From: Prochlorococcus sp. AG-463-F15
GTDB lineage: Bacteria; Cyanobacteriota; Cyanobacteriia; PCC-6307; Cyanobiaceae
DNA: 53,394 nucleotides
Assembly (NCBI GenBank): GCA_003211755.1
Contig: QCRS01000003.1
Span: 1-53,394 of the forward strand
Direction: 5' to 3'
Below are positions 43,247-47,215 of this stretch, piece after piece. Position numbers and translations under genes: made by a program. Each line of letters opens with the position of its first letter. Position 1 is the first letter of the stretch. Under the pieces are notes generated by a model that saw only the letters and a program-made list of their open reading frames with translations, was not told the DNA's origin and did not search any database.

Positions 43247-45532
43247 TCACAACTGAAGTGGATCTGGATCTACTGCAAGACTTACCCCGCGGGGGAGACA
43301 AGACCATAATTCTCTTCCTTGCGGAAGTGGCAAAGAGCTTCCCTCAGGGCCATGCAACAAAAGTTGCCATCGACTTTTTCCAGACACCTTGGCAATGAGA
43401 GCAGGGGCTGGTCCCACTAACCACCATCCCTTTGAATCACATATAGGTCTTATTTGTTCAGCCAATCCAGCAGCGGCTGTAGCAGTAACTGAAGCTGACT
43501 CGCCCGACAATCGAAGTAGGCATGCCCTACTAAAAGGGACCAGACCTGACTCCCTTCTTAGTTCTAATTCCTTTTTCAGAAACTCTTCATACCGACCATC
43601 TATTAAGTGCAAAATCACAGGATGATCTGGGCAGTAAGTCTGAATCAAAACTTGACCAGGGCGCTCACCTCTTCCCGCGCGTCCAGCAAGTTGCATAAAA
43701 AGTTGAAGGCTCTGTTCGGTCGCCAACAAATCAGGCCGATGCAATAGTCCATCTGCCGCTAATACAACTGCAAGAGTTACTCGAGGCAAATCAATACCCT
43801 TAGCAAGCATTTGAGTTCCTATAAGCACATCCGCTTCACCAGCAGCAAATTTTGAAAGTATTAGCCGATGACCATCGCGACCTCCTGTCGTGTCTTTATC
43901 AAAACGCAAAAACTTTAATTCCTCTAATTCTTTCTCAAGATGATCCATCACCCTTTGAGTACCTGCCCCAAAAGGTTTAAAAGCAGTAGAGCCACATTTA
44001 TTACAAAAGGAGTGAATCGTTGAGCGATGGTCGCACCAGTGACAACGCAACCAATGCTGTCCTTGAGCACCTTTATGGACAGTTAGCGCTACATCACAAT
44101 TTGGGCATTGCACTACTTCACCACAACTTCTGCAGCTCAAAAAGCTGCTATAACCACGCCTTGGTACTAAAACTATCGCCTGATCCCCAACCTCTTTCAA
44201 TGCTAAAAGCTGCTTCATCAAAGATCGGCTAATAAGTTGCCGATGGCCTGCAGCTAATTCCTGACGCATATCAACAACATGAACACTAGGTAGAGGCTTA
44301 TTAGAAATTCTTCGACTTAATCGAGCAAGGGAGATAGTCCCATTAGGAGCAAGGTTTTTCCATGTAGATAAAGAAGGAGTTGCGCTGCCTAAAACAACTC
44401 TTGCTCCAGTGCTAACTGCGCGGGTCAAAGCAATATCTCTAGCGTGATAGCAAGGCATAGGAGATTCCTGTTTATACGAACTGTCATGCTCTTCATCGAG
44501 AACAATCAAACCCAAAGGTGCAAGGGGAAGGAAAACAGCTGAACGAGTTCCTACTAATACAAGTGGTTTTGAAGATTCAAGGGCTATACGCCAATTAGCA
44601 ACACGCTCTTTGTCACTGCATCCACTGTGATATTCCAATACCTGGGAACCAAAACGCCTTCGAAACCGATCAACCAATTGTGGAATCAATCCAATTTCTG
44701 GCGCAAGAACTAAACAATTTCTGCCCGCAGCCAATTCATTAGCGGCTATTTGAAGATAAACCTCTGTCTTTCCTGATCCTGTAACACCCCATAGCAACAA
44801 AGCCTCACCAGGTAATTGTGAATCAAAAGTCTTAATCGCAGCTATTTGTTCATCAGTCAAAGATTGAGATGGTTCTAATTCAGTTGAATCAACATCCAAA
44901 GATTTAGAAAATACTTGAGGTTTTTGAATTAATTGGCGCTTCTCACGGCTAACTCTTCCTCTAGAAATAAGACTTTTAATAATTCCAGGTGAAAATCCCT
45001 CCTCATAAAGATCCTTCTGCCAGATTCCTCCACCTAGCTTCTGAAGATGATTTTCTAATTCCTCTTGCCGCTTTGTAAGAACACCATCCTTCAAACAGAC
45101 CTTTTCAAGAGATATCCACCAAAGACTTTTAGTATCTATATTTAATTTCTTTTTACCTAGCCAACCTGGTGGCAAGGCAGCTTTAAGCATGCGGAAAGTA
45201 CTTATATGGCAGTGACTTGCTATATCTTCTAACCATTCACGCCATTCAGAATCAACGGCAGCCTGTTGAACAATAGCTTCCACATCTGCTAGAGAATTTC
45301 TCCCAGATAGTGATTGATTTGTTTCTTCGTTTTTATTTGATAACTTAATACGCCTTGCTACTACAAGCCCATTCATTGGTCTACCCCTTAGTTTCACCCT
45401 AACCAAATCCCCTAGATCAACCCCCAACTGATCATTGTCTTTATAAGTAAAACAACGCCCTTCCCTTCCCACATCTAGCCACACATCTACTTCTGCGTAG
45501 TGGCATTGAGAGTCAATACTTGCGGACGTCAC
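43247..45532 (-). CDS. priA: Primosomal protein N' helicase
   Basis: LLWGVTGSGKTEVYLQ, VLDEEHDSSYKQ, CRSCGEVVQCPNCDVALTVHK zinc region, LAGRAGRGERPGQV. Confidence 0.96.
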   Translation of the reverse strand: MTSASIDSQCHYAEVDVWLDVGREGRCFTYKDNDQLGVDLGDLVRVKLRGRPMNGLVVARRIKLSNKNEETNQSLSGRNSLADVEAIVQQAAVDSEWREWLEDIASHCHISTFRMLKAALPPGWLGKKKLNIDTKSLWWISLEKVCLKDGVLTKRQEELENHLQKLGGGIWQKDLYEEGFSPGIIKSLISRGRVSREKRQLIQKPQVFSKSLDVDSTELEPSQSLTDEQIAAIKTFDSQLPGEALLLWGVTGSGKTEVYLQIAANELAAGRNCLVLAPEIGLIPQLVDRFRRRFGSQVLEYHSGCSDKERVANWRIALESSKPLVLVGTRSAVFLPLAPLGLIVLDEEHDSSYKQESPMPCYHARDIALTRAVSTGARVVLGSATPSLSTWKNLAPNGTISLARLSRRISNKPLPSVHVVDMRQELAAGHRQLISRSLMKQLLALKEVGDQAIVLVPRRGYSSFLSCRSCGEVVQCPNCDVALTVHKGAQGQHWLRCHWCDHRSTIHSFCNKCGSTAFKPFGAGTQRVMDHLEKELEELKFLRFDKDTTGGRDGHRLILSKFAAGEADVLIGTQMLAKGIDLPRVTLAVVLAADGLLHRPDLLATEQSLQLFMQLAGRAGRGERPGQVLIQTYCPDHPVILHLIDGRYEEFLKKELELRRESGLVPFSRACLLRLSGESASVTATAAAGLAEQIRPICDSKGWWLVGPAPALIAKVSGKSRWQLLLHGPEGSSLPLPQGRELWSCLPRGVSLAVDPDPLQL

Positions 45533-45548
45533 AAGTTTTTTTTAGACT
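45520..45548 (+). promoter_or_regulatory. Candidate sigma70-type promoter for the priA-rpoD intergenic RNA
   Basis: TTGCGG (45520-45525), exactly 17 bp spacer, TAGACT (45543-45548). Confidence 0.5.
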
Positions 45549-45554
45549 TAAGTT

Positions 45555-45705
45555 GTTGGACAGCCCAAAGGCTGTTGTCGGGACAGTGCAGAGTTCCGTC
45601 CAGTGGGAAGACAAGAAGCATGAACCGCTTTGGGTACCCCCCATATCAAGGTATGCCGGTCTGAGAAAGCCCCTGACAGCCCTGCCACGATCCACATTTT
45701 TATCT
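45555..45705 (+). ncRNA. Candidate structured non-coding RNA between priA and rpoD (boundaries approximate)
   Basis: GC-rich block in an AT-rich genome, non-protein-like ORFs on both strands, long-range stem 45570-45582/45670-45681, hairpin GGGTACC/GGTATGCC at 45632-45657, upstream promoter, T-rich tail. Confidence 0.6.
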
Positions 45706-45849
45706 TTTTCAGTTTCCACATCTAAACCCATCACAATTCTTATCTAATCTGATTAATACGATCATCGAACTCTTCGGAGAATTGTTGATCATCTTCCATT
45801 ATCACGATTTAACCAAAGATCTTGTGTTGTGTTTCAGGTGTTATAGCCA

Positions 45850-45896
45850 AATCGGCATCGTTTTTTTACAAAATTGTGTATTTCGATTAGCCGATT
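45850..45896. repeat. Inverted repeat in the rpoD 5' region
   Basis: AATCGGC-ATCG ... CGAT-TA-GCCGATT: 7+4 bp stem with 2-nt bulge. Confidence 0.6.
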
Positions 45897-45922
45897 CACC
45901 TTGTTAGTTCGCGTGTCCTGAA

Positions 45923-47215
45923 ATGAGCCCAGCCGCTACCAAATCAACAGCTTCAAAATCTAAAGTTAATGGGGATTCCCAAAAACTTTCAGCTGTCGAA
46001 GGGAAAGTAAAAACCAATGCCACAAAAGTTAAGCCCAAAAAATCAAAAGTAGTTTCTAGTTCATCTTCAAAGAACTCAAATTCAAAAACCAAAAAGGTTA
46101 ATTTGCAAAGTCAATCATTAGATACAGCGGCAGACCAACTCCTCGCTGAAGCTTCATTAGACAAAGACAAGGTTCAAGAAAGCCTACCCACAACTTCTGC
46201 TCTCTCAATCAGTGAACAAGAAGCAAGAGCGAGAGCCTTAGCGAGCATCAAAATTGGTCCTAAAGGGGTTTATACCGAAGATTCAATCAGGGTTTATCTC
46301 CAAGAGATTGGTCGCATAAGACTACTAAGACCTGATGAAGAGATTGAGCTGGCAAGAAAAATTGCAGACCTCCTGCAATTAGAAGAACTCGCAGCCCAAT
46401 TTGAGAGTGAGAATGACCACTATCCATCAACAAAAGAGTGGGCAGCACTTGTAGAAATGCCACTAATAAAATTCCGTCGAAGGTTAATGCTTGGAAGAAG
46501 AGCAAAAGAAAAGATGGTTCAGTCAAACCTTCGCTTAGTTGTCTCTATCGCGAAGAAATATATGAATAGAGGTCTTTCCTTCCAAGATCTAATTCAGGAA
46601 GGGAGTCTGGGTCTGATAAGAGCTGCTGAGAAATTTGATCATGAAAAAGGCTACAAATTCTCTACTTATGCGACCTGGTGGATTCGCCAAGCAATTACAA
46701 GAGCAATTGCCGACCAAAGTCGAACTATTCGACTTCCAGTACATTTATATGAAACAATCTCACGAATCAAAAAGACCACAAAAGTTCTAAGTCAAGAGTT
46801 CGGAAGGAAACCAACAGAAGAAGAAATTGCCGAAAGTATGGAAATGACAATTGAGAAGCTTCGGTTTATAGCAAAAAGTGCTCAACTTCCTATCTCATTA
46901 GAAACTCCTATTGGCAAAGAGGAAGACTCACGCTTAGGAGATTTCATAGAAGCAGATATCGAAAATCCAGAACAAGATGTTGCAAAGAATCTACTTCGAG
47001 AGGATTTAGAAGGTGTCCTCGCCACCCTAAGTCCTAGGGAAAGAGATGTTCTTCGTCTCCGTTATGGACTTGATGATGGCCGGATGAAAACACTAGAGGA
47101 AATTGGACAAATTTTTGATGTCACCCGTGAACGAATTCGACAAATTGAAGCCAAAGCACTGAGGAAACTTCGCCATCCCAATCGTAATGGAGTGCTCAAA
47201 GAATACATAAAGTAA
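45923..47215 (+). CDS. rpoD: Principal RNA polymerase sigma factor (group 1, SigA/RpoD)
   Basis: [89 protein letters not shown]. Confidence 0.97.

Follow-up and report, generated by a model that had tools for sequence, protein, structure and literature searches.

A structured, pseudoknotted RNA between priA and rpoD of Cyanobiaceae: a candidate 5' leader domain of the primary sigma factor mRNA

Pseudoknotted riboswitches and protein-binding leaders (SAM-II, preQ1-III, ribosomal-protein leaders) place a promoter-proximal H-type pseudoknot upstream of their presumed target. Among the RNAs described in picocyanobacteria, 6S RNA (Yfr7) lies downstream of purK (PMC1242208), and Yfr103, which is 290-328 nt long, occurs seven times in Synechococcus CC9605 (PMC5069720). 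Axmann et al. 2005 listed a 161-nt candidate from MIT9313 and WH8102, cluster 229, among their 'putative ncRNAs' and did not test it (PMC1242208). The MED4 ncRNA tables of PMC1242208 and PMC2518516 contain no RNA at priA-rpoD, with cluster 229 unplaced in the former; the screen described in PMC2518516 did not consider RNAs that lay within 100 nt of a same-direction gene. Comparison of the MED4 5' UTRs with Rfam yielded no conserved element (PMC3898218).

In the window, i.e. the whole 53,394-nt stretch of Prochlorococcus sp. AG-463-F15 DNA that was analysed, the open reading frame calls place priA and rpoD in divergent orientation, with a structured block in the gap between both. The block extends from 45555 to about 45687 on the plus strand and has a GC content of 57%. 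The remaining gap sequence has 35% and the window as a whole 41%, and no more than 0.04% of all 134-nt windows reach this GC richness. These values bear out a preliminary description of the locus, which had pointed to a GC-richer block in the divergent gap. Two called open frames run across the block. The features of the locus are:

43247-45532, minus strand: priA, the divergent neighbour
45520-45525, plus strand: -35 box TTGCGG, inside the first priA codons (opposite strand); TTGC 89-96% conserved at a fixed distance in 71 loci
45543-45548, plus strand: -10 box TAGACT (family consensus TANNNT), N17 after the -35 box; conservation of about 90% at T, at A and at the last T across 71 loci
45555, plus strand: predicted transcription start (GUUGG...), 7 nt past the -10 box, placed from promoter spacing; GTTG about 90% conserved
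45559-45576, plus strand: hairpin 1, GACAGCC/GGCUGUU; 94.6% of cells paired, three pairs with double changes
45579-45598, plus strand: hairpin 2, CGGGAC/GUUCCG, with the loop AGUGCAGA; 96.8% of cells paired
45588-45591, plus strand: pseudoknot strand 1, GCAG in the hairpin 2 loop, pairing with 45682-45685; 95.9% paired
45601-45675, plus strand: stem 3, CAG-GGG/CCC-CUG plus AGAC/GUCU (45601-45612 with 45659-45675), enclosing a variable inner arm
45682-45685, plus strand: pseudoknot strand 2, CUGC, the 3' border of the conserved domain; conservation drops just past it
45686-45922, plus strand: remainder of the gap, putative rest of the 5' leader, poorly conserved up to the rpoD start codon
45923-47215, plus strand: rpoD (primary sigma factor), always the downstream gene, on the same contig and strand in 138/138 genomes

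The promoter pattern TTGCNN-N17-TANNNT stands in front of the element in 71 distinct loci, with boxes and spacing kept, and the plus-strand promoter TTGCGG-N17-TAGACT proposed in the preliminary description is thereby conserved across relatives. Within 45520-45532 the -35 box falls in the first priA codons of the opposite strand, so the RNA promoter and the priA start place constraints on one another.

The block had initially been thought to be possibly 6S RNA or another housekeeping RNA. A search of the whole window against Rfam gave no match above threshold, and a permissive search of 45300-46000, with E up to 10, matched neither 6S (RF00013) nor any other relevant family; no tRNA, tmRNA or Rfam RNA turned up elsewhere in the window, and ARAGORN finds no tmRNA in it. 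Bacterial SRP RNA (RF00169) and RNase P RNA (RF00010) likewise gave no match at the locus. Strong matches to these two families, to 6S and to the cyanobacterial two-piece tmRNA (RF01851) were found elsewhere in 5/5 complete relatives, which argues that the element is none of these. In length and GC content it falls within the range of a housekeeping RNA and a sigma factor neighbour would suit a 6S-like RNA, but the element's covariance model gives no match at the 6S loci, and the three-helix pseudoknot described below differs from 6S, which forms one long bulged hairpin. We consider a known housekeeping RNA, or a diverged second copy of one, extremely unlikely.

A DNA search matched the block in 17/40 relatives. 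The covariance model, which was built from 37 sequences, detected the element in 235/250 Cyanobiaceae genomes of a family sample, with one copy in each, and all rpoD-fetched loci with a full priA-rpoD gap contain it. In a class-wide model search the sampled Cyanobiaceae genomes were matched, again always in single copy. The element is a structured RNA family of Cyanobiaceae (Prochlorococcus, Synechococcus, Cyanobium) that is absent from Rfam, and standard annotation misses it because no Rfam model covers it. In the 138 genomes for which the positions of the element and of rpoD are both listed, the two share contig and strand without exception, and the rpoD start lies 163-784 nt downstream of the model end. 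This linkage alone proves little because priA-rpoD synteny is itself conserved. The stretch between the element and the start codon measures 104-634 nt and is variable and poorly conserved.

The sole model match outside the family (G268, E 1.4e-4) is antisense inside a protein gene (L128) and was taken as chance. No element was found in phage records, and one exact pattern match on a viral contig was rejected, as no element surrounds it.

The statistical support for the fold consists of an event-based tree test, run after an all-pairs G-test, and of pairing counts on 37 sequences. In the latter, 94.3% of the cells of the whole structure are paired and 10/29 pairs have changed on both sides. 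On a 76-sequence tree, 15 branches carry double compensatory changes, whereas 300 simulations under the null gave 1.4 on average and never more than 6. For hairpin 1, 80% of pair-changing events remain canonical, versus 42% in the null; hairpin 2 has two double compensatory events (p about 0.02). The pseudoknot, whose pairs were left out of the covariance model used for alignment, shows GC to AU double changes at 2/4 pairs and four double compensatory events versus 0.3 expected, a number reached in 0/300 simulations. Stem 3 is paired in 99.3-99.5% of cells, with double changes from G-C to C-G, A-U to G-C and C-G to U-A, and it has six double events against a null maximum of one per half; in its inner arm in Prochlorococcus sp. 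AG-463-F15, GCAU..ACC pairs with GGUAUGC. Judging from the coordinates, the geometry would be that of an H-type pseudoknot in which 3 nt cross the 4-bp helix and stem 3 is inserted in the third loop. Conserved DNA that is not an RNA, such as protein-binding sites or a relic coding region, might produce the high identity among close relatives, and the two open frames cross the element; this interpretation is nevertheless contradicted by the covariation, whose compensatory changes include G-C to C-G and G-C to A-U, and the length changes do not come in threes. We give it hardly any weight.

In the same 76-sequence analysis, G.U cells outnumber A.C cells by 77 to 24, which fixes the strand as plus, in line with the earlier remark that G-U pairs favour this strand. 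The block could otherwise have been a minus-strand 5' leader of priA, since it lies directly upstream of that gene and complementary strands share their Watson-Crick pairs. The excess of G.U over A.C cells speaks against this, as does the conserved promoter, which faces rpoD and lies on the priA side of the element, leaving a priA leader very improbable. The conserved promoter, the covariation and the family-wide model matches strongly support a promoter-linked, plus-strand structured RNA, as the preliminary description had it.

In genus g9, the model misses 7 genomes, 4 of which keep priA adjoining rpoD on the fetched stretch. Five g9 genomes have the promoter TTGCAG-N17-TAGCAT upstream of rpoD. 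The hairpin UUGGCccuuGCCAA comes next, then a second one with the loop GGUCAG, which pairs with CUGACC further downstream, and also a third stem. In L136, hairpin 2 reads GACGAGC/GUUCGUC and the pseudoknot GCAG/CUGC, as judged by eye. The architecture predicted for g9 and L136 is the same, with little shared sequence.

Some further observations were made in these lineages. The N-terminal extension of rpoD is much longer in genus g9 (L138-L141, L143) than in Prochlorococcus. A GC-rich hairpin is found directly past CUGC in L136, L138-L143 and several Cyanobium loci and is absent in Prochlorococcus; this extra 3' hairpin shows compensatory changes in g9 and is mostly without a U-tract. At L135 (G520), in a genus that normally carries the element, the -10 box upstream of rpoD is degenerate. 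The element seems to have been lost or to have decayed there, which would make this genome a natural loss mutant.

In the all-pairs G-test, which used a tree-based null, no individual pair was significant, although the structural pairs ranked near the top; we therefore make our claim for the overall structure and for its helices, not for single pairs. Single-sequence folding showed no signal on either strand (z about 0), so the support for the structure is purely comparative. The preliminary description was right in proposing a structured RNA, but its pairing was largely replaced by the fold presented here. Its long-range stem (45570-45582 with 45670-45681) shows no covariation excess and uses bases that belong to hairpin 1 and stem 3, and its hairpin GGGUACC/GGUAUGCC differs from the conserved inner arm, GCAU..ACC with GGUAUGC. 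RNAalifold prefers a nested long rod (alignment columns 38-58 with 136-151), which uses the pseudoknot pairs and opens or replaces hairpin 2. We prefer hairpin 2 because the divergent genomes rebuild it with other bases. The nested rod is possibly a second conformation of the modelled RNA, and the shared pseudoknot pairs hint at two alternative states.

A conserved sense-strand structure thus lies directly upstream of rpoD, and the question is whether it belongs to the mRNA of that gene. A scan of the gap between the element and rpoD, which -10-only promoters would escape, revealed no second consensus promoter: the best score was below the shuffled mean, and 1/72 loci reached p<0.05. The T-rich tract noted earlier after the block is not a conserved terminator, and the relatives' loci contain no conserved intrinsic terminator after the element. 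In MED4, a recognisable intrinsic terminator was reported in just 11/337 3' UTRs (PMC3898218), and because such terminators are so rarely recognisable in these genomes, a missing one is weak evidence. The lack of a second promoter and of a conserved terminator favours a long rpoD 5' leader over a free RNA, both signals being weak here.

We propose that the element is a 5' leader domain of the rpoD mRNA that acts in cis on the expression of the primary sigma factor, with a probability of roughly 0.6. Besides these two signals, its single copy in 235/250 genomes, the linkage to rpoD in 138/138, the covariation and the conserved promoter speak for this assignment, as does the genus missed by the model, which keeps promoter, hairpins and pseudoknot in place with different bases. 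Against it stand the long, variable and poorly conserved stretch up to the start codon and the sharp end of conservation past CUGC, such as is seen where an RNA gene stops. A conserved expression platform was not found among the relatives: neither a terminator/antiterminator pair nor a masked ribosome-binding site was seen, and some lineages have the extra 3' hairpin.

The main rival is a free-standing small RNA gene of the Yfr type, whose targets in trans would be other mRNAs or a protein, with rpoD transcribed from its own weaker promoter. Its own strong promoter and a compact domain whose conservation stops at the 3' pseudoknot strand would suit such a gene, as would the GC-rich hairpin just past the element in L136, the genus of L138-L141 and several Cyanobium; the absence of a terminator counts for little, given the MED4 figures. 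On the other hand, the element never occurs away from rpoD in 138 genomes, rpoD has no second promoter signal of its own, and the RNA is missing from the MED4 ncRNA tables (PMC1242208, PMC2518516), although the screen behind the latter had the 100-nt limit given above. A free RNA is possible, and we hold it to be the less probable reading.

If the element is an rpoD leader, transcription of the rpoD mRNA would start at the conserved sigma-70-type promoter with its -35 box in the priA start, and the element would make up roughly its first 130 nt. The RNA would fold into hairpin 1 and then into the pseudoknot between the hairpin 2 loop and CUGC, enclosing the long stem 3, and the transcript would run on for about 235 nt to the rpoD start codon in Prochlorococcus sp. 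AG-463-F15. Most likely the pseudoknotted domain would adopt or switch its fold on a protein or a small signal and in this way, in cis, would set how much rpoD mRNA is completed, stays stable or is translated. Structure, strand, promoter, distribution and synteny have direct support in the present data; that the element stays joined to the rpoD mRNA and regulates rpoD is inferred, as is any signal. More tentatively still, the leader may hold a sensor, either riboswitch-like or a pseudoknot for RNA-polymerase or sigma feedback, that tunes the primary sigma factor.

Picocyanobacteria have few regulators, and a family-wide pseudoknotted RNA joined to rpoD would be a central control point. A leader sensor, if real, would belong to a new RNA class and be one of the rare examples of a housekeeping sigma factor that is controlled at the RNA level, here in the most abundant marine phototrophs. 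The structure, the start site and the covariance model provide a testable target for how ocean phototrophs set global transcription.

Several described RNAs invite comparison. Cluster 229 resembles the element in length and taxa and might be identical with it; the main text of PMC1242208 gives no position for it. Yfr103 is also an abundant structured ncRNA of marine picocyanobacteria, whereas the element is about 130 nt long and single-copy. 6S RNA (SsaA/Yfr7, RF00013) is an ncRNA that the same genomes carry and that is comparable in size, at about 175-185 nt in low-light strains, with a functional tie to the sigma factor in other bacteria, but it lies at another locus and has no sequence or model match to the element; it folds as one long hairpin opened by a large central bubble, in contrast to the two hairpins, stem 3 and pseudoknot of the element. 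Pseudoknotted leaders such as SAM-II and preQ1-III differ from the element in that it matches no Rfam family and is linked to rpoD, and they resemble it in having a promoter-proximal H-type pseudoknot domain upstream of the gene that is presumably controlled.
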